A stretch of DNA of 64,000 nt. Origin: Halalkalicoccus sp. CG83 (GTDB lineage: Archaea > Halobacteriota > Halobacteria > Halobacteriales > Halalkalicoccaceae). The notes under the pieces were generated by a model that saw only the letters and a list, made by a program, of their open reading frames with translations, was not told the DNA's origin and did no database searches. The position numbers were made by a program, and so were the translations under genes. Where the stretch lies: positions 186,001-250,000 of the forward strand of contig NZ_JAZDDH010000003.1 of NCBI RefSeq assembly GCF_037081715.1, written 5' to 3'. Each line of letters begins with the position of its first letter. Position 1 is the stretch's first letter. Below, piece by piece: positions 5,482 through 32,454 of the stretch.

Positions 5482-5500
5482 ACCGAGCTGGTTCGGATGG

Positions 5501-6454
5501 TCAGTGTCGTTCCTGAAACCATCGGACGGCATCGTAGAGGGCGTGTCGACGGCGTTCGAGATGGAGGAGGTGTGTTCCACCGCTGATTTCGACGTAGGTC
5601 GTCTCGTCTCTGGGAACGGAGAGTGCGTCGTACAGCGAGAGGGCGTCTGAACGGGTCGACGTAGGATCGAGCGAGCCACGGATCACGAGCGTCGGAACGT
5701 CGATCGCCGACGGATCGTAGCCGGGGTCGCCGTTCGCGGCGTCGAGTAGGTCAAGCAGCGTTCCGTTGGGAGCGTCGAGCGTCTGGTCGTCCTCGTTACC
5801 CTGTCCGGAGTCGGCGAGCGTCTGCCAGAACGCGTCGAACACTGGATCGGATGCTTCGTTGCCACCCCGATAAGCCGCCGCCGGCTCGTCGTCGGGAAAC
5901 TGGCTGTCCCACCGGTTGCGTACCTCGGCGCGACTCACCGTCCGATAGGCCCGGGGCGGGTCGCCAAGGTCGAATCCCTCGAGCAGCTCTGCTGTTGGCC
6001 TGTAGACCGGCGCATGAAGGGTCGCGGACGCGATTTCCGGCGAGTCATCTGCCGCCAATAGTCGCCCTGCAACCATCGTTCCCCACGACGTCCCGACGAG
6101 ATGAACGTCGCAGTTGGTCCGCTTTGAGACGGCGTTGACCGCGTCACGGAGGTCCCCGGCGGCGGTCGCAGCCCTGACCACCGGTTCTGTCGCCGTCGGT
6201 GGTCCGTCCATCTCCGGCGGCCGTTCGCTGTCGCCGTAGCCGCGGAGATCGAGCGCGAATCCGGCGTCGCCGGCGTCGGCGACCGCGGCAAGCCACGAGT
6301 GCTCCGGCGCGCCGCGTGGAGCGAAGATCGCACGGCTCGCGTACGTGGCCCCGTGGACGAACAGTACCGCCCGTTCCGGATCAGCTGCTGAGCGTTCCCA
6401 GAGTCGGAGTCGCGTGCCGTCCGCCGCCTCGATATCGTGTGCCTTGACGGTCAT
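5501..6454 (-). CDS. alpha/beta hydrolase
   Basis: This 317-aa cytoplasmic protein shows the complete hydrolase pattern. The oxyanion region is VLFVHGATYAS, followed by FALDLRGYGDSERP. The nucleophile elbow is VGTSWGTMVAG (Ser at about 123). A late-strand Asp lies in TLVIRGSLDPT and the catalytic His in EISGGTHLLHLERR near 294. It converges with the preceding hypothetical gene, with 19 bp between stops. The substrate is unknown; esterase, lactonase or haloperoxidase-like activity are all possible. Confidence 0.85.
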   Translation of the reverse strand: MTVKAHDIEAADGTRLRLWERSAADPERAVLFVHGATYASRAIFAPRGAPEHSWLAAVADAGDAGFALDLRGYGDSERPPEMDGPPTATEPVVRAATAAGDLRDAVNAVSKRTNCDVHLVGTSWGTMVAGRLLAADDSPEIASATLHAPVYRPTAELLEGFDLGDPPRAYRTVSRAEVRNRWDSQFPDDEPAAAYRGGNEASDPVFDAFWQTLADSGQGNEDDQTLDAPNGTLLDLLDAANGDPGYDPSAIDVPTLVIRGSLDPTSTRSDALSLYDALSVPRDETTYVEISGGTHLLHLERRRHALYDAVRWFQERH

Positions 6455-12149: not shown

Positions 12150-12384
12150 TGCTGAGTACGTGCCCTGTAGTCAGCACGCCGATTCCGAGAAATGCGAAAT
12201 TTGATGATTAGGGACCATAGGGGGCGTTCGTTCGCTCGAAGTAGACTACTTTGTCACCAGTTATAGCGAGTTTCCGTGTTTACCAGAGAATAGGCATCTG
12301 GGTGAGAGAGTTCGGAGATTCAGCTACTGTGTTCTCTTCGGCTGTTACAACTGGCGTGCTGAATACAAGGCGCATATTCAGCAG
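12150..12384. repeat. MITE copy A, bounded by terminal palindromes
   Basis: A roughly 235-bp unit begins with an imperfect palindrome (12150-12178, ...GTAGTCAGCAC) and ends with another (12355-12384, GTGCTGAATAC...ATATTCAGCA). Its interior (GTAGACTACTTTGTCACC, AGTTATAGCGAGTTTCCGTG) is closely shared with copy B at 12909-13118 and in part with 18930-19060. It encodes nothing, as expected of a non-autonomous element. Confidence 0.7.
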
Positions 12385-12446
12385 ATAGCCAGCCGAGGTT
12401 TCTGACTCCAGGCAAGATTATTTGATCCACCGGGGAACCACTGAGT

Positions 12447-12887
12447 ATGGTCGCCGGTATTCCTAAGCAGTTCGAAGACCAATTCTGGGCCCGTCACTCG
12501 AATCCAAAGAGCGGCTGGATGCGCGTCCCGTCGGGCGCCGTCATCGTCTACGCTATCTATCACCGCAATTGGCGACTCCTCGGTGCCGCGCTCATATGGA
12601 CGGCAATCAATCCGTTCCTGTTCTCGCCACCCGAAACTGAAGACGCTTGGATGACTCGCGTCGTCCTCGCCGAGCGGTGGTGGGTCAAGGAGAAGACGAA
12701 CCGGACGGTCGGACTCGGCTACCCAAACGTCTGTAACGCCGTCGCCGCGCTTGGGTTCGTCTACGCACTATACGCCGCTTGGCGACATTCACCGAAAGGA
12801 GCGATACTTGGCGTCGTGACCAGTATCGCCCTGAAACTCTGGTGGGCCCGGGTGTTGGTCAAACGCTACGACCAACGAACTGGGTGA
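12447..12887 (+). CDS. DUF6653 family membrane protein
   Basis: This 146-aa protein has an N-terminal soluble part (FWARHSNPKSGWMRV) and hydrophobic helices (WRLLGAALIWTAINPFLFSP, VCNAVAALGFVYALYAAW, GAILGVVTSIALKLWWARVL). It matches the haloarchaeal DUF6653 pattern (FWxRHxNPxSGWxR near the start, ERWW in the middle). Its function is unknown. It is bracketed within 65 bp upstream and 22 bp downstream by two same-orientation copies of a MITE, so it could have been moved as a unit or lost by recombination between the copies. Confidence 0.7.
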   Translation: MVAGIPKQFEDQFWARHSNPKSGWMRVPSGAVIVYAIYHRNWRLLGAALIWTAINPFLFSPPETEDAWMTRVVLAERWWVKEKTNRTVGLGYPNVCNAVAALGFVYALYAAWRHSPKGAILGVVTSIALKLWWARVLVKRYDQRTG

Positions 12888-12908
12888 TAGTACTCCCACT
12901 GTTCGGTT

Positions 12909-13118
12909 CTGACTACGTCCTCTGTATTCAGCAGGCCGAGTTCAATAGATTCGTTATCTGATGATTAGAGAACACGGGGACTTTCACTCGTTCCAGGTAG
13001 ACCACCTTGTCACCAGGTATAGCGAGTTACCGTGTTTACAATATATTCGGAATTTCGACTTGAGCGTTCCTTCCAGTTGTTAGAACTGGCGTGCTGAATA
13101 CAGAGCGTATATTCAGCA
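12909..13118. repeat. MITE copy B, direct repeat of copy A
   Basis: It starts with a palindrome at 12909-12933 (GTATTCAGCA arm) and ends with one at 13090-13118 (GTGCTGAATACAGAGCG, TATATTCAGCA). The interior matches copy A (GTAGACCACCTTGTCACC, GTATAGCGAGTTACCGTG). The orientation is the same as copy A. The remainder to 13221 shows no gene. Confidence 0.7.
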
Positions 13119-14869: not shown

Positions 14870-15232
14870 TCAGTCTACATTATGAATAAGACAGGCGATA
14901 GTGAGTTCACGGAACTGTTTCCACCAGCGTCGTGACCGGACGAATGCACCGTACTTCCGCTTGAGCGTTGAGTTGACAGTCTCGGATTGACTCCGCTGGC
15001 CGTAGAGATCAGTGTCTAAGCGCGCGTTCCATGCCCGGTGGAGTGACGTGAATTCACGATGCTTAATCAGTGGACGAACCTCGTATTGACGGGCAAGTCG
15101 TCTGATTTTCTGATCGTCGTACCCTTTGTCACCGAGAAGGATGTCGATATTCTCGGGATTGCGCTTGATCAACGACGGAGCGATCTGGCTATCGTGTTTT
15201 CGTGTTGTCGTCACGTGGAGATCAAGCATTGC
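14870..15232 (-). pseudogene. IS5-type transposase, C-terminal half (interrupted)
   Basis: The minus strand encodes MLDLHVTTTRKHDSQIAPSL, DILLGDKGYDDQKIRRLARQ, the region SQSETVNSTLKRKYG and SRRWWKQFRELTIACLIHNV. This is the DDE catalytic core end of an IS5-family (ISH1-group-like) transposase, with the late Glu in SQSETVNS. The N-terminal half lies at 16842-17299 in the same orientation. Joining the halves and dropping one 8-bp repeat gives 813 bases, that is 270 codons plus stop, in frame (NAIL-DLH). The right terminal repeat of this host IS is not seen below 14870. Confidence 0.8.
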
Positions 15233-15269
15233 GGCCTTGTTGAAACCCTCAGCAATTGATAGGAATCGC

Positions 15270-15298
15270 GTGCTGAATACAGAGGCGCTATTTAGCAC
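15270..15298. repeat. subterminal palindrome, left end of cargo element
   Basis: GTGCTGAATACAGAGG followed by CGCTATTTAGCAC: a member of the palindromic family that also bounds the MITEs at 12-13 kb. Arms are nearly complementary. Confidence 0.65.
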
Positions 15299-15408
15299 AG
15301 CAGCAACGTTCTATTCACACGAATACAGCTGAATCAGCTGCTTGGTCGAGCCTGCAAATTGACCGATACACCGCATGTACATCATTCCGGCAGGGACGTA
15401 ATACTATA

Positions 15409-16494
15409 TTACGTTTCAGGTTCGTTTTTGAGAACAGTACTGTCGAACGGGAGTTGATGATCGGTTCCGATGACAAACGGGCCTACGGCAGGCGTCCGTT
15501 TGGTTACGGATGCTACTCGAAGCACGTAGGCGGTGAGAATGACGTACGGAGTGAGTGCGATCGTATACGCCAGGCTGATGAACACTGCCAGCGGCGACAG
15601 CCCCCCGATTGTGACCTCGGGGAAGAGTCCGGTGTCGAGTGCCAGCAATACGTAGGTGATGAAGACAATCACCGGCAACGAAGCGATCAGCAGCATCGTC
15701 GAGAGCTCGGAGAATTCTCGTTTGTAATAGAGCGTCTTGAAGTACTCGCGGCTGCTCATCAATTCGTGGAGAGCCGTTCCGAGTTCGTCCATGACGGCTC
15801 GATGGTCCTCTGAGAGTTGATCGGCGTAGTTTTCTTGAAGTCGGTAGGTCTGGTGAAGTTGCCACGAACTGTCGTAATCCAGCCCGACGAGTAGTTCGTC
15901 TGTGGTCCCGGCCTGTATGTTCTCCAGCGTTCCGATCAATTCTTCGATATTCGTTTCGATATCGAGTTTGAGAGCTGTGACGTCCTGCTGCAGATTCGAG
16001 TCGGGATGGTCCGCTACGATCGATTCGAGTTCGTGGGCCTGCTGGTGAATTGCTTGCAGCGTGGCGATGATGATCTGGCCTGGGCGGGCCGGACTCGTCT
16101 TGATCTCGTCGTGGGCTACGATTCGACGGCGGAACTCCACCGCGGTCTTGATGCGGTCGTGTTGCTTGCCCAGTGAGGTGAGTTCCTGGCTGACGCCCAC
16201 CGACGTGACAGCGACGACGATCGAAACGAGCAGGATCACACCACCGAGCAACGTATTGAAGATAGTCTGCACCATCGCCGTCTCGGATACCAATCGCCGA
16301 TATTCGATCGACCAGACGGCTCCGAACAGGACCAATACGACGAAGACCCCACCGAGCAATACAGCTGTGACGTGCATCCGGTTTCCGTCAAAGAGAAACC
16401 ATCGTTTGAGGCGAGACTGTTGCGGGCGAGAATACTGGTCGGAATATCTGTCAAGGCGATTGCGAAGGGACTGGAAGCGCAGTTCGTCGTCCAT
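15409..16494 (-). CDS. four-helix membrane protein with cytoplasmic helical domain (element cargo)
   Basis: From the ATG at 16494 this encodes 361 aa: MDDELRFQSLRNRLDRYSDQ, two membrane helices (VTAVLLGGVFVVLVLFGAVW and TIFNTLLGGVILLVSIVVAV), about 170 residues of helical soluble domain, then two further helices (STMLLIASLPVIVFITYVLL and LAVFISLAYTIALTPYVILT) and a short basic/acidic tail. Similar 2+2 helix proteins of unknown function occur in haloarchaea. It is the only cargo of the element that splits the transposase. An upstream in-frame extension of 18 codons is possible but starts less plausibly. Confidence 0.75.
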   Translation of the reverse strand: MDDELRFQSLRNRLDRYSDQYSRPQQSRLKRWFLFDGNRMHVTAVLLGGVFVVLVLFGAVWSIEYRRLVSETAMVQTIFNTLLGGVILLVSIVVAVTSVGVSQELTSLGKQHDRIKTAVEFRRRIVAHDEIKTSPARPGQIIIATLQAIHQQAHELESIVADHPDSNLQQDVTALKLDIETNIEELIGTLENIQAGTTDELLVGLDYDSSWQLHQTYRLQENYADQLSEDHRAVMDELGTALHELMSSREYFKTLYYKREFSELSTMLLIASLPVIVFITYVLLALDTGLFPEVTIGGLSPLAVFISLAYTIALTPYVILTAYVLRVASVTKRTPAVGPFVIGTDHQLPFDSTVLKNEPET

Positions 16495-16770
16495 GGTCAG
16501 TAGACAGGACCAAGCGATAAAGGGAATTTCCTGGCTGGAAGTACCCACTGAGCGTTTGGGTTCTGTATCCGTGTTCTACATCCCACCTATATTTTAATAT
16601 ATAAATATAAAAATAAAATGCCATGCAGAGTGCGTATATTACAGGAGATTCCCGGTAAGCGCAGCTATTACAAAGTCGTGTGTACTGAGCGATCACTACT
16701 CCCGCAGACCAAACAGAATTTCGTGCTGCATTCGCGCCCTGTATCGACCGATTCGAACGGCTGAAGCTTC

Positions 16771-16800
16771 GTGCGAGATACGCGCTCTGTATTCAGCACG
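16771..16800. repeat. subterminal palindrome, right end of cargo element
   Basis: On the minus strand it reads CGTGCTGAATACAGAGCGCG then TATCTCGCAC. It is the counterpart of 15270-15298 in inverted orientation. Confidence 0.65.
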
Positions 16801-16841
16801 TCTGTTTGAACCTATCACCGCTTGAGGATTTCAACAGAGCC

Positions 16842-17299
16842 AGAATTGCGTTGACCTTCGCATCGACCAACAACGTCACTTTGAGCTGCTGAATCGTAAG
16901 TTCAGCTCGTTTTGTGTAGTGTTTCGAAGCGTGACTGCGGTCGAACCCTGACGCATCAACCCCAACAACTCCGCTTGTCGGAAGTAGCGTCGCTGAGAGA
17001 GTCAATAAGATCCGCCACACAGCCATATCAAGTCGATTGAATGCCTTACAGAGCGTTGATGGCGTCGGAAGTTCGGCTAATCCAAGAACTCGGCGGATGC
17101 GTGGCATCTCGATCAGTTCGTCAAGCAGGCCACGGTAGGTCGTGTTCTTCCGAACTTTGAGACACAGCAGAACAACGTGCTGCGGGAGTGTATAGCGGTG
17201 TTTAGAGAACTTCGAGGAGTATCGAGAGACCGCTCGGCGTGCCAGATGGATCGCCTTCTCAGTAAACCGGAGAATCTGCGACTTCGGGAGGGCCTTCAT
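16842..17299 (-). pseudogene. IS5-type transposase, N-terminal half (interrupted)
   Basis: The start codon ATG at 17299 is followed by FTEKAIHLARRAVSRYSSKF, TLPQHVVLLCLKVRKNTTYR, GLLDELIEMPRIRRVLGLAE, a DDE-type strand VVGVDASGFDRSHASKHYTK and LKVTLLVDAKVNAIL. VGVDASGFDRS holds the first catalytic Asp. The frame then runs into the inserted element. The host IS left end (GGCTCTGTTGAAACCCCC on the minus strand) is at about 17336-17351. See the C-terminal half at 14870-15232. Confidence 0.8.
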
Positions 17300-17585
17300 C
17301 TCGTGGAATTACAGGACGAAAATGTAACTCTCTGGGGGTTTCAACAGAGCCGGATTAGTGGAAGTCTTCGTCCTTTCTAACACCGCTGATTATTGACCTA
17401 TTGAAATCAGCATGATGGATACAGAGGATCGATTCAGCAGACGGTCCAGTGCCGTCGTCTCTTGAACTATCGATCGTTTGTAGGACTGCCTCGCAGTTGT
17501 TCTCTTTCAACGGCCATCCAGCTACCGAGTGATACCGATGCGACCCGACTGGGTGGACCGAGTCAGTTGTGGTGCAAATGAGACT

Positions 17586-17735
17586 ATGCTGCTATTGCAG
17601 TTCGATACTACGCTCTCGCTGTCGCCCGCGGAGAAAACATCGTTCGCGAAGACGGTCACGGAGTTGGATACGACCGCGGTGGCGACGACACAAGGCCACG
17701 TCGCCCGTAGTGTTATTATATCCGGGAATAGGTGA
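17586..17735 (+). pseudogene. tautomerase-family protein, N-terminal remnant
   Basis: MLLLQFDTTLSLSPAEKTSF, then AKTVTELDTTAVATTQGHVA. Haloarchaeal tautomerases begin MPLLQFDTTLSLSxxEKxxFAxxVTxLY and use the Pro2 amine as catalytic base. Here Pro2 is replaced by Leu, and the frame ends after about 49 residues, where the next gene's promoter begins. The spacer 17357-17585 contains a degenerate member of the CTGAATAC palindrome family near 17409-17440. Confidence 0.6.
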
Positions 17736-17742
17736 TGACACT

Positions 17743-18714
17743 ATGGCATCTGGCCTCCTGATCCCCGAGGATCACGACGACGTTGCAGCGTTCGCCGAAC
17801 GTGCAGAATCGCTGGGGTACGATTCTCTCTGGGTGACCGAACTGTGGGGTCGAGACGCATTCATAACGCTCACAAACGCCGCAAAACAGACGGAGACGAT
17901 CGATCTCGGTACAGCAATTGTCAACGTCTACAGTCGCTCGCCCGCTACCTTGGCACAGGCCGCAGCAACCCTCGCTGACGCCGCAGATGGACAGGTCCGG
18001 CTTGGATTTGGGACGAGTACCGCCAAAGTTATCACTGATCTTCACGGCATGGCCTTCGACAATCCGCCACGTCGACTCCACGAGACCATCGAACTCGTTA
18101 AGTTGTTCCTCAATGGTGGCGACCGAGTGACCTATGACGGACAACTGTTCTCCGTCGCGGACTTTCCATCGCTAGACCAGAACATTCCTCTTTACGCTGC
18201 AGCCCTCGGCACGGCGAATCGGCGCGCAACCGGGAGAGTCGCCGATGGCTGGTTGCCTCACAACATTCCCTTCGATCAGTTATCAGAGACATACAGGACC
18301 ATCGCGGAAACTGCTCGGGAAGCGGGCCGAGATCCGAATGACATTACAGTTTCGCCGTACGTTCCATGCGCGGTAAGCGAGGACGCCGACGAGGCGTATG
18401 CGACGATCCGGAACCACCTCGCATACTATCTGGGGAGCAGCGAGGGGTATAAGAACGCTGCCGCACTCTCATTTCCGGATCAGGCCGCCCAAATTTCTGC
18501 TGCCTGGCGCGACGGTAACCGCGACGCAGCCCGTAACGCGGTCACCGACGAGATGATGAATCAGTTGGCAATCGTCGGTCGTCCGAGCGAGGCTCGTGAG
18601 CAGTTCGAGAGACTGGCTGCGCGTAACGTCGTTGACGACATAATCATCACAATCCCGATTGGTGCGAGCGATAACCTTCGCAAGCGGACTGTTGGGGAAC
18701 TAGCTCCCGAATAG
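17743..18714 (+). CDS. LLM-class (F420/flavin-dependent) oxidoreductase
   Basis: This 323-aa TIM-barrel protein is of the luciferase-like monooxygenase superfamily: FAERAESLGYDSLWVTELWG, IDLGTAIVNVYSRSPATLAQ, VRLGFGTSTAKVITDLHG, VELVKLFLNGG-type helix, FPSLDQNIPLYAAALGTANR, RRATGRVADGWLP and ITVSPYVPCAVSED. The GTA(I/V)xxxxxRxP and ADGWLP motifs are those of F420-dependent members such as methylene-H4MPT reductase-like enzymes. The substrate is unknown. The ATG at 17743 directly precedes the first conserved strand; TATTATA about 30 bp upstream fits a TATA box. Confidence 0.85.
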   Translation: MASGLLIPEDHDDVAAFAERAESLGYDSLWVTELWGRDAFITLTNAAKQTETIDLGTAIVNVYSRSPATLAQAAATLADAADGQVRLGFGTSTAKVITDLHGMAFDNPPRRLHETIELVKLFLNGGDRVTYDGQLFSVADFPSLDQNIPLYAAALGTANRRATGRVADGWLPHNIPFDQLSETYRTIAETAREAGRDPNDITVSPYVPCAVSEDADEAYATIRNHLAYYLGSSEGYKNAAALSFPDQAAQISAAWRDGNRDAARNAVTDEMMNQLAIVGRPSEAREQFERLAARNVVDDIIITIPIGASDNLRKRTVGELAPE

Positions 18715-18929
18715 TTGGGCCATTAGTGAAGAGAATGGCGGCCGCTTCCGGTGGACTCGCGCTTTCGAGGAGAGTGTGACAGTCATACGGACCTCCCTAA
18801 GAAGCGAATACAAGATCTGCACACCTATTCGAGAGGCATTCAGCGCAGAAGAGCCGGAAGAAACGAAAGTTGTTTACTGAACTCACCCTCTGTACCTATC
18901 GATTCCAACACCCACTTCTTGTATGGCTA

Positions 18930-19060
18930 CCATGCGAAATTCGCGCTCTGTATTCAGCACGCCGATTTCAATAGGTCCGTAACCTGATAATTAGAGAGCA
19001 CGGGTTTCGCTCATTCGAAGTAGACCACCTTGCCACTAATTATAGTGAGTTGCCGGTTTT
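18930..19060. repeat. MITE copy C, partial
   Basis: It begins with CTCTGTATTCAGCACGCCG (from 18947) and continues GATTTCAATAGGTCC, AGAGAGCACGGG, GAAGTAGACCACCTTGCCAC and TTATAGTGAGTTGCCG, as in copies A and B. It stops where the integrase remnant begins, so its right end is missing. The rest of 18715-18929 shows no gene. Confidence 0.6.
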
Positions 19061-29529: not shown

Positions 29530-30102
29530 GCGCTTCGTCCCTAGTGAAGACTGCCGAGGTGTGCTATTGCTTCAGACGAGCGCTCGATTTCTGACTCAGC
29601 GGGAGAAGACGTCATTGGTCCGACCCTTATAAACCACGGCCGATCTTCCCCGAGGAATCACGAAAATCAGGCGCTCATCTCAGTCAGTCAGGTGCGACTT
29701 CTCACTCCGAAGAAGGAGGCAGCGATCTACCTGTCCTGGTGTGGCCCTGTTGTCCTCCCTAAGGCCCCGTTCACGTCCCGTTCCTACACGCTGACAGCCC
29801 TTCATCCCCAACCGGGGAGTTCAGGCCATCCTCCCATAGATGCCTCTCACATCCTCGCTCTGCCCTGTTGGGTGTGAGTGAGTGGTTGAGGTTGCCCTGG
29901 TCTGTCGCCTCGCTATGGGCCTGCTAGGCCCCTCTCCGTCGATCGGGTGGAGACGAGTAGCTCTGTTGAAACCCTCAGATCGTGACAAGAATGGACTGTG
30001 AATATAGAGGACGTATTCAGCAAATCGGTAACGATAGGGTACAGCGTTAACGGTAGGATTCGTGGCCAACAATAATAGCCTGTGTTCTTGTTACACTATA
30101 CT
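29530..30102. other. intergenic region with IS-end debris
   Basis: It holds a GTGCTATTGCTTCAGACGAG motif (29559-29590) shared with 31994 and, on the other strand, with 32140 and 62325. At 29961-29978 GCTCTGTTGAAACCCTCA matches the cargo-element end, followed at 29997-30022 by a palindrome (ATATAGAGGACGTATTCAGC). This is a solo IS5-type end. The GC-rich middle (29700-29950) has no supported gene. Confidence 0.55.
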
Positions 30103-30273
30103 ATGGTCAAATGTGCTCGATGCGGCCGTGATGTGGATGAAGTTCAAAGCATCTCGCCAGATGTTATCACGAAAGAACTAATCGACTCAATTGATCACGG
30201 CGAAGAAGCCGTTGCCGGGGAGAGTGGTATAGAAGTTTGTGCCGAGTGTATGGATGAACTGAAGGGAGACTGA
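30103..30273 (+). CDS. small zinc-binding protein
   Basis: This 56-aa protein has two CxxC pairs at its ends (MVKCARCGRDVDE and EVCAECMDELKGD) that could form one zinc site, around an acidic helical middle (DVITKELIDSIDHGEEAVAG). Its ATG at 30103 follows an AT-rich stretch (ACACTATACT). No family name is known. Treble-clef-like mini-proteins of this kind are frequent in haloarchaea. Confidence 0.6.
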   Translation: MVKCARCGRDVDEVQSISPDVITKELIDSIDHGEEAVAGESGIEVCAECMDELKGD

Positions 30274-30472
30274 AAACGAAGCGTGGTATCGTTACTGACG
30301 ATTTCAGCACGATCTGGATTACAAGATTCGCGCCCTGTATCTTGCACACCCCAAATCGCTTTTCCGCTATTCTGTCAGATAGCGCGTGACTGACGCAGAG
30401 AGTGCATTCGGCAGCTGGTGGTAATACGTTGCGCATCTAGAGACGAACGAACCATCATTTTATGCACATCTC

Positions 30473-31732
30473 TTAGGCGAGGAGTGAAAACAAGGCATAG
30501 GATCCCACGACCGCCATCGTCGGCGTAATGACCCAGAGCGTCACGATGCGAGCTGACGCTGCGGGGTCGAACAGACTTTCGGCGGACAGTTCCTTCGGGT
30601 CTTTCTCGCCAATGCTAGACACACGATCCCCGGATGAGTGCTGCCTGTCCGGGCCAGGAATCTCGCCTTCAGCGAGTTCGCCCACAGTCGGGCTCGCAGC
30701 GACCCCCTCGTCGCCCTCAACTGGAGGGAGTTTGAGCGCACCAGTCGTAATCTTTGGAGCGGGTTCATCAGCAGGAGACTGTTTGACTATTTCCGCGAGC
30801 GTCCGGGCTCGGCTTGCACGGCCCCACCCGAGCCCAATGATGCAACTGGTCGTGCTCACGGCGAGACTGGCTGGAATTCCGAGCCACGATAGGACGGTGA
30901 TGATCGTCGCACCCACGGTCGAAACGATAAGCGCTGCTAGAATCGGCATATTAGTAACATCGTTGCCAACGGTTGCCAGCGTCCGCCGGGCAATCGTGAA
31001 GCCGCCCACGCTGATGGCCCCGACCGCGAGGAGAATCGCCTGGCTGGGGTTGAGGGAACCGTTGCCGACGAGCGGGGCGACTGCGTTCGCCGCGTTCGAG
31101 GCTCCGGCGCTGAACCCCATGTAGCAGGCAATTGCCACCACAAGCGCCGACCCGATTAGATCCCGAGGTGCCACGTTATCGTTGACCGATAGTCGTGGGA
31201 GCCTCCCCTGGGTATCGATTGCGATCAACGGGTTCATGAGTCGACCAAATGCGAATTTGGCGTCGAGATGCGGGTACAGATATCTGCCGATAAACGCACC
31301 TGTGAACACGGCAATCAGCGGGGCGACGATCCATGCCGACAGGATGGTAAACATCAGCGCAGCGTTGAGCGTCCCCGTTGCTAATCCGAGTCCGACGATT
31401 GCTCCGACGGCTGTCATCGAGGTTGACGCCGGGACACCGTAGAGGTTCGAGATCAGGAGTGCGAGCCCGGTAAAAAAGAGGACGCCAACGCTCGCTGCGG
31501 GTGTAAAGGCTGCTGCATCGACGATTTCGGTACTCATCGTCGTGATGACCTTCCGCCCAATCGTCCACGCTCCGAGGAACGCGAACACGGTAAACAGTGC
31601 TCCGGCGGTGACTTTTCTGACGGCCCGGCTGCCGACCGCCGGACCGAAGGCAACACCGGTTGATGACCCTCCGATATTATACCCGACGAACACTGCCACC
31701 AGCAACCCCAAGAGAATCAGTAATTCTGCCAC
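30473..31732 (-). CDS. PiT-family inorganic phosphate transporter
   Basis: The 419-aa protein (GTG start at 31732) has two copies of the PiT signature: GYNIGGSSTGVAFGPAVGSR near the N-terminus and CYMGFSAGASNAANAVAPLV in the second half. Multiple helices and a hydrophilic loop (about 275-360) precede the last helix. Both GxNxxxSxxxxxxPxVGxR-like and ASNAANAVAPLVG repeats bind phosphate or its metal complex; H+ or Na+ is the coupling ion. It has a long hydrophilic loop near the C-terminus rather than mid-protein. The longer open frame to 31813 is possible but less likely. Confidence 0.88.
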   Translation of the reverse strand: MAELLILLGLLVAVFVGYNIGGSSTGVAFGPAVGSRAVRKVTAGALFTVFAFLGAWTIGRKVITTMSTEIVDAAAFTPAASVGVLFFTGLALLISNLYGVPASTSMTAVGAIVGLGLATGTLNAALMFTILSAWIVAPLIAVFTGAFIGRYLYPHLDAKFAFGRLMNPLIAIDTQGRLPRLSVNDNVAPRDLIGSALVVAIACYMGFSAGASNAANAVAPLVGNGSLNPSQAILLAVGAISVGGFTIARRTLATVGNDVTNMPILAALIVSTVGATIITVLSWLGIPASLAVSTTSCIIGLGWGRASRARTLAEIVKQSPADEPAPKITTGALKLPPVEGDEGVAASPTVGELAEGEIPGPDRQHSSGDRVSSIGEKDPKELSAESLFDPAASARIVTLWVITPTMAVVGSYALFSLLA

Positions 31733-32454
31733 GTGTCTGCGTTCGGTTTGCACGCGAAAAAAGTGCCGTTTCACTGCTAAACTGCTGGCTACGACCGATA
31801 GATTCAGTAACACGGGGATCTAGTAATTCACAACTGAAGTCCCACTAGTCTCTACCAATGCGTCTCCACACGGGTTGCCCAAAGATCGGTGACCGATATG
31901 CGCATTGTATTCAGCACGTCACTTCTATCAACCATCGAGAGTTCCAGTACGGCCAATTGTTCTCCTACTTCTCACTCTACTACAATCCGGGAGTGTGCTA
32001 TTGATTCAGACGAGTGCTCGATTTGCTGGCTACCGAACGTATCATCGATAAAGGTGGAGTTATGTTTCAGTGACCGCCCCTATTTACAGACAACTTGAAT
32101 ACGTAATCATCAGTAATCGACCTTGTCTTAAATCGGGGGTTTATCTGAAGAAATGGCATAGTACCGAGAGAACGTCGGGAGAGGCTGCTCCCTACGGCCC
32201 TGAAACGGTCGTAATGGGTGGGTTTCGGTCCATGGAACGGGTATAGCAAGTCCCGACGGAAAGCGACACGAGAGTACACACCACTGACCCCGAGGAGGGC
32301 TTCGATGGTGTTCTCTGTCTTTCTTCACGCCGGAACCACTACATATTAACTATAATTAAGTAATTATTTAACACTATTGTACGATTTGGGATATGTTGAA
32401 ATGCAGGTACTCGTCGGACGGAGTAGCGCACTGTCAACTGGACTAGTCTGGTGA
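31733..32454. other. intergenic region with MITE fragments
   Basis: At 31901-31920 a CGCATTGTATTCAGCACGTC half-palindrome is followed by TCAACC and, at 31994-32023, GTGCTATTGATTCAGACGAG. At 32139-32165 the reverse of the same motif appears (TTATCTGAAGAAATGGCA). This looks like a MITE relative of the 62.3-kb copy. No gene is seen. Confidence 0.5.

Follow-up and report, generated by a model that had tools for sequence, protein, structure and literature searches.

Mobile insertion cassettes (MICs), such as MIC231 of Bacillus cereus, mic-qnrD, and mic-qnrS2, are elements in which a passenger replaces the transposase between IS-like ends (PMC3913671). The haloarchaeal elements presented here resemble the MICs in their IS-like inverted ends, passenger gene, target duplication, and mobilization in trans, which is presumed or shown for the MICs (PMC3913671) and inferred here. 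They differ from the MICs in having two long and distinct end modules, a class-wide spread, dozens of unrelated cargos, an inferred IS5-type helper, and cargo exchange at a core site. In the Tn3-derived TIMEs and mosaic elements, transposase-less ends also mobilize diverse DNA in trans (PMC4133298), but there complete miniature elements flank the cargo, whereas the haloarchaeal cassettes possess single L and R ends and a recombination-like core. The Acinetobacter dif (pdif) modules share with the cassettes the short, inverted, and partly palindromic sites that surround genes, together with inversion, shuffling, and fusion (PMC13141974). The dif modules as described in that report have no transposable frame. 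The haloarchaeal core has an 11-7-11 layout, and it is not known to be a substrate of any Xer recombinase.

The nearest described haloarchaeal element is ISH2, which is approximately 520 bp in length and contains a short ORF (PMC3119063, PMC10264941). ISH2 and the haloarchaeal MITEs are, like the cassettes, transposase-less, moved in trans, and flanked by target duplications (PMC3119063, PMC10264941). The MITEs are short and mostly non-coding, whereas the cassettes hold diverse full-length genes within 0.2–4.6 kb. Integron gene cassettes are single genes with palindromic boundary sites that form an exchangeable pool, as the haloarchaeal cassettes appear to do; the haloarchaeal units, in contrast, lie between transposon ends at dispersed positions rather than in an array at one integrase. 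In the open-access literature searched (subscription papers were outside the scope), no prior description of the cassette family and no integron-like gene-capture system for haloarchaea was found.

The window, which is the whole stretch of 64,000 nucleotides analyzed here, lies on a 257.7-kb contig of a 3.64-Mb haloarchaeal genome. The left part of the window matches a plasmid of Halalkalicoccus sp. FCH27 at 95% identity. At positions 15233–16841 a transposase-less insert of 1609 bp with inverted ends splits a 270-codon IS5 transposase gene. The termini of the insert are GGCCTTGTTGAAACCCTC at 15233 on the forward strand and GGCTCTGTTGAAATCCTC at 16841 on the reverse strand. The target duplications AGCATTGC (15225–15232) and AGAATTGC (16842–16849) are identical at 7 of 8 positions, and the intact IS relatives carry the right copy, AGAATTGC. 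The insertion point in these relatives reads ...GAGAATTGCGTTC, and therefore the target was originally AGAATTGC, from which the left copy, AGCATTGC, differs by one substitution. Fusion of the flanks over one repeat restores a single open frame through NA(I/M)LDLHVTTT, with 450 and 363 bp combining to 813 bp.

The outer end on the left side of the insert, designated the L outer end (GGCCTTGTTGAAACCCTCAGCAATTGATAGGAATCGC, 15233–15269, forward strand), was identified with end model R1, which gives 64.9 bits for the whole end, and the consensus of 79 L ends. It is followed by the L core, GTGCTGAATACAGAGGCGCTATTTAGCAC, an 11-7-11 near-palindrome at 15270–15298 on the forward strand, which was located by a pattern search with 2 mismatches and 0 control matches. 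The same search located the R core, GTGCTGAATACAGAGCGCGTATCTCGCAC, at 16771–16799 on the reverse strand with 3 mismatches. The R outer end (16800–16841, reverse strand) has a longer spacer than the L end and was identified with end model R2 (75.4 bits for the whole end). The cargo gene (15409–16491, reverse strand, read from the first ATG) encodes a predicted membrane protein of 360 amino acids; a weak match to DUF2207_C falls below the Pfam cut-off. Relatives of this protein in other haloarchaeal genomes are up to 54–55% identical, and the cargo of cassette L249 is a homolog with 29% identity.

The preliminary description of this locus had proposed an insert with inverted ends and 8-bp flanking repeats, in-frame joining of the split gene, and a 361-aa passenger. 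The insert is confirmed with repeats that are 7/8 identical, and the joining is confirmed as a single open frame of 813 bp encoding a 270-codon transposase; the passenger is corrected to 360 amino acids. The proposed 18-bp ends hold only in part, as the shared end sequence is longer, approximately 66 bp for L and 72 bp for R. The identity of the ends with those of the interrupted IS holds for the outer 17–18 bp. The suggested placement in the ISH1 group of IS5 is supported at the level of the IS5 family by NCBIfam model NF033579; below that level it remains a suggestion that rests on the 8-bp duplication. Two different long end modules, a class-wide family, and the swapping of cargo between fixed ends were not recognized in that description.

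The 5′ part of the interrupted transposase gene (16842–17299, reverse strand) is 95–98% identical to intact copies elsewhere. The 3′ part (14870–15232, reverse strand), which matches DDE_Tnp_1, is 89–96% identical to the same copies. The 5′ terminal inverted repeat of this IS, GGCTCTGTTGAAACCCCCAGAG (17330–17351, reverse strand), is homologous to the ends of the intact IS copies at loci L252, L254, and L275. Both halves of the gene align to one contiguous IS transposase with a 276-aa open frame that is nearly unchanged in many haloarchaea. The halves thus do not derive from different IS types; two different types would have refuted the original proposal. The intact transposase of L252 passes the NF033579 "IS5 family" model with 208 bits against a cut-off of 140. 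The three intact copies have exact 8-bp duplications and the termini GGCTCTGTTGAAATCCTC on the left and GGCTCTGTTGAAAT(C/A)CT.. on the right. The outer 17–18 bp of the cassettes equal these IS ends and the duplication is 8 bp in both, while a conserved subterminal motif of the cassettes is absent from the IS. A duplication of 8 bp agrees with what is generally known of the ISH1 group of IS5.

A search of the window genome returned no intact copy of the interrupted transposase. The cassette therefore sits in the only detected gene for its presumed helper and is probably immobile now. In some cassette-bearing genomes (e.g., G001 and G083) no match to this IS subgroup was obtained, and therefore other IS5-type transposases may serve. 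Copies of the presumed helper IS at L254 and L255 (1449–3062) have exact duplications but differ in length, between 1177 and 1614 bp; given this variation, the IS itself may carry extra sequence. A 354-bp L..R mini-cassette is located within the 3′ part of a presumed helper IS copy at L261 (2435–2788).

When the insert was first used as a query, plasmids and genomes returned numerous short matches to its two ends. These matches resolve into two distinct end modules, L (approximately 66 bp) and R (approximately 72 bp, with the longer spacer), that face each other across different genes. The L consensus, derived from 79 L ends, is GGCTCTGTTGAAACCCTCAGAAcnTGATAGGAATgGC-GTGCTGAATACAGAGGgTGaATTCAGCA, and the R consensus, derived from 39 R ends, is GGCCTTGTTGAAACCCTCAATCGGTGATAGGTTTCAGCAGtC-GTGCTGAATACAGAGCGCGTATCTaGCAC. 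The end models were built from family members. With the sequence-only L model at E ≤ 1e-12, strict matches are found in at least 93 of 391 sampled haloarchaeal genomes, representing 44 of 86 genera; the figure is a lower bound because 13 candidates per genome were scored. The window genome contains many decayed solo ends. No match to the exact R-end pattern was detected in the viral contigs searched.

Transposition was evaluated with 140 non-duplicate loci around L ends. These loci were picked by a strict L end, and therefore young elements are favored. A facing end pair is present in 101 of the 140 loci, and 59 of these pairs are flanked by a target duplication of 7/8 or 8/8 (36 exact). The duplication-bearing elements are 209 to 4592 bp in length, and 56 of the 59 have one L plus one R end. 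In the first set, duplications of at least 7/8 were observed for 24 of 48 strong L/R pairs versus 2 of 2254 mispaired controls, and exact duplications numbered 16 and 0, respectively. Transposase genes were detected in only 3 of the 101 elements (L201, L235, and L363) using tblastn with two IS5 queries, a screen that would miss unrelated transposases. L363 contains a related gene. An autonomous cassette transposase was considered for L201 and L235 and rejected; the gene in each belongs to a nested IS5 insertion that has ends and an 8-bp duplication of its own.

A natural pair of filled and empty sites is also available. The composite cassette L079 of Halalkalicoccus sp. FCH27, 3201 bp in length, is missing from the window at 5497–5504, where the empty target site GATGGTCA is found with both flanks 94–95% identical and overlapping at the junction. 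Insertion as units with 8-bp duplications, the rule of one L plus one R end, and the termini common to the cassettes and the IS5 element are thus shown. The preliminary description had read the insert as a mobile insertion cassette and had named the same ends around other cargo, empty sites, and an intact transposase as the points to be checked. The same ends with different cargo are found in many genera with 8-bp duplications, the L079 pair supplies the empty site, and an intact cognate IS is present in other haloarchaea, although no intact transposase copy was detected elsewhere in the window genome. These comparisons support its reading. Its further proposal, that a common transposase could have moved the insert, is consistent with the shared termini and duplication length; action in trans is still inferred.

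The cargo differs nearly every time among the cassettes. Cargo ORFs were called by a simple rule of length and composition. Pfam matches were obtained for an HNH endonuclease, a formate/nitrite transporter, an alpha/beta hydrolase, a BAT-HTH_10 regulator, a cupin, an FAD oxidoreductase, a glyoxalase, SnoaL, and BrkB/YihY; many cargos have no Pfam family match. Among 20 scanned cassette-borne proteins (neighborhoods not included) no integrase family was detected, and no IntI/attC platform was seen. Within the genus of the window, seven loci have common end modules and, in most comparisons, common outer flanks, and their cargo is unrelated in all pairs but one. In the genus-mates G001, G002, G005, and G006 (loci L286–L298), the cassettes sit between conserved flanks, U and D, that recur at several loci around different cargo; L288 and L292 have one unit in common, along with about 110 and 64 bp of additional flank. 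At L236 (3669–5002) a cassette flanked by a 7/8 duplication carries the gene for a 193-aa TATA-binding protein (TBP); extra TBP genes may spread in haloarchaea by this route.

Evidence for exchange of cargo was obtained from an all-against-all comparison of the loci. L315 and L320, from two species, have common flanks of 3.8 kb on one side and 300 bp on the other, the same duplication GGCGACTC, and both end modules, and yet their interiors are unrelated. At another site, L337 and L358 have the same flanks, duplication, and end modules around unrelated interiors. These are the only two fully two-sided cargo-swap pairs; L184/L204 and L227/L305 are one-sided cases of the same site with different cargo. 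Conversely, L172 and L330 have the same cargo (98% identity) with different R outer ends, and L192 and L336 share a BrkB gene (95% identity) whose direction with respect to L and R is reversed between the two. Where the cargo is the same, all four ends compared show 100% identity over the 14 bp inside the core, whereas identity over the outer 30 bp is 17–30% at three of the four. The two-sided same-site pairs show 83–93% identity over the outer 30 bp, and their cargo is at the background level of 20–33%. L172 and L330 were compared without gaps, and therefore an indel lowers the R-side cargo figure. Because of these core-anchored comparisons, the switch is placed in the core GTGCTGAATACAGAG. 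Replacement and inversion of cargo at the core are thus shown by comparison; the exchanging enzyme is inferred.

The core GTGCTGAATACAGAG constitutes half of the 11-7-11 near-palindrome. When the inner arms are compared with the reverse complement of the outer arm, 6.4–6.8 of 11 positions agree, versus 2.7 for shuffled sequences. No compensatory changes were detected in the arms of the palindrome. Covariation of an RNA or DNA stem in the core was considered and rejected, as none is present beyond column composition. Of 59 elements, 9 contain internal cores, versus 0 expected from shuffled sequences, and in L079, L213, L234, and L251 they are placed between genes.

From the features tested, the family belongs with the mobile insertion cassettes, with mobilization in trans inferred, and the cargo behaves like that of dif modules. 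The sequence features that define a MIC are present: terminal repeats that match a known IS, no transposase gene, a passenger, and a duplication of the helper length. The insert does not qualify as a composite transposon, which would require two flanking IS copies, as its cargo is flanked solely by end modules. It is not a MITE (under about 600 bp and non-coding), with a length of 1609 bp and an ORF of 360 codons. Inverted sites that flank a gene with crossovers at those sites, as in dif modules, are supported by comparison only (the switches and one inversion). The 28-bp XerC/XerD sites with a 6-bp spacer are not matched by the 11-7-11 core. The dif sites of the Thermococcales have a 6-bp spacer (PMC2958812), and therefore membership in the dif group is not claimed.

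The interpretation that we favor as the likely one places the insert in a haloarchaeal family of non-autonomous transposable cassettes, each composed of a frame and exchangeable cargo; action in trans and the core enzyme are inferred. The frame layer would consist of the outer L and R ends, approximately 40 bp each, which start with the 17–18 bp IS5-family terminal repeat. An IS5 transposase acting in trans would cut these outer ends and insert the unit with an 8-bp duplication. The cargo layer would usually contain one gene bounded by cores (GTGCTGAATACAGAG plus an inner arm) that are inverted on the two sides, and cargo would be exchanged or inverted between frames at the core. The inferred enzyme is most simply a site-specific recombinase on the 11-7-11 site, with short-homology recombination as the other possibility. 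In the window, the cassette interrupts the sole copy detected of the gene for its presumed helper, where it is probably stranded. The case for two layers, although likely, rests on comparison, and neither transposition nor recombination was directly observed.

Plain mobile insertion cassettes, with independent gene captures and with apparent swaps that reflect homologous recombination between the approximately 70-bp ends, are a serious alternative that we hold to be rather less well supported. Among cassettes, the ends of each type have enough similarity to permit homologous recombination, and the IS231/MIC231 elements have been described as modular (title cited in PMC3913671). Against this explanation, the switches are at the core, where the inner arms move with the cargo and the outer ends with the frames. 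In L192/L336 the same cargo edge joins the L outer end in one locus and the R outer end in the other, and therefore exchange inside the short core is needed. An Xer-like tyrosine recombinase at a dif-like site, which would make the family an archaeal counterpart of the Acinetobacter dif modules in transposable frames, is an alternative of about equal standing with the plain cassettes. In its favor are the near-palindromic 11-7-11 site with the complementarity given above and the inversely oriented sites that flank the cargo, with inversion and module fusion that resemble those of dif modules (PMC13141974); moreover, 12 xerC/D-like genes are reported in H. volcanii (PMC7776575). Against it, no recombinase was identified, L sites differ from R sites in their inner arms and spacers, and the Thermococcales dif sites differ in their spacer (PMC2958812).

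The ends could also be remnants of a once autonomous transposon with an unsampled transposase rather than borrowers of an IS5 element. The asymmetric subterminal sequence, conserved across genera and absent from the IS, supports this origin. It is nevertheless unlikely, since the cassettes agree with the IS in their outer 17–18 bp and in duplication length, and a transposase gene was found in 3 of 101 elements, two of which are nested IS (with the stated limit of that screen). That separate solo repeats bracket a host gene by chance is all but excluded. Decayed solo ends are indeed common in the genome, but the 8-bp duplications at both exact termini, the L plus R rule, and the L079 empty site are against this explanation, and for the duplication-bearing elements it is refuted.

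A bolder form of the two-layer interpretation is a new mobility system in which IS5-moved frames are combined with a dedicated site-specific recombinase that exchanges and inverts single genes at a conserved 29-bp palindromic core; at present the balance leans slightly against it. If correct, haloarchaea would possess a class-wide pool of interchangeable genes that includes the gene for a general transcription factor (TBP). Haloarchaea are known for heavy gene exchange, and the family provides a concrete vehicle with fixed ends, a core, and varied cargo. With it, gene capture in archaea becomes open to direct tests in Haloferax volcanii, and the two end modules, L and R, can serve as a marker for mobile genes now annotated as ordinary hypothetical proteins.

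Three older units are found in the window. The first extends from core to core at 12356–12934 on the forward strand (cores at 12356–12384 and 12906–12934) with a DUF6653 ORF at 12447–12887, and its outer ends have diverged. It is 80% identical to the cargo of L230 from core to core only, and L230 has an ordinary L outer end. The second, a cassette-like unit at 17411–18963 on the forward strand, has weak core matches on both sides of a luciferase-like monooxygenase ORF (17653–18711; Bac_luciferase). The third (29959–31954, forward strand) carries a PHO4 phosphate-transporter gene (PHO4 match) between ends that score 45.8 and 29.2 bits; no duplication is left, and the cargo is 82% identical to that of locus L175. 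The right ends at 12925–13035 and 18950–19060 represent a second outer-end type, with about 110 bp shared outside the core (GGTAGACCACCTTG...GAGTTrCCG). Nothing beyond a 23-bp match to this type was detected in the sampled haloarchaea; it is nearly restricted to the window and is therefore treated as local. At L003 (1501–1626, G000 C4) a MITE of roughly 125 bp has the cassette outer termini and the duplication GAAAGGTC without a core, and it is apparently another user of these termini.
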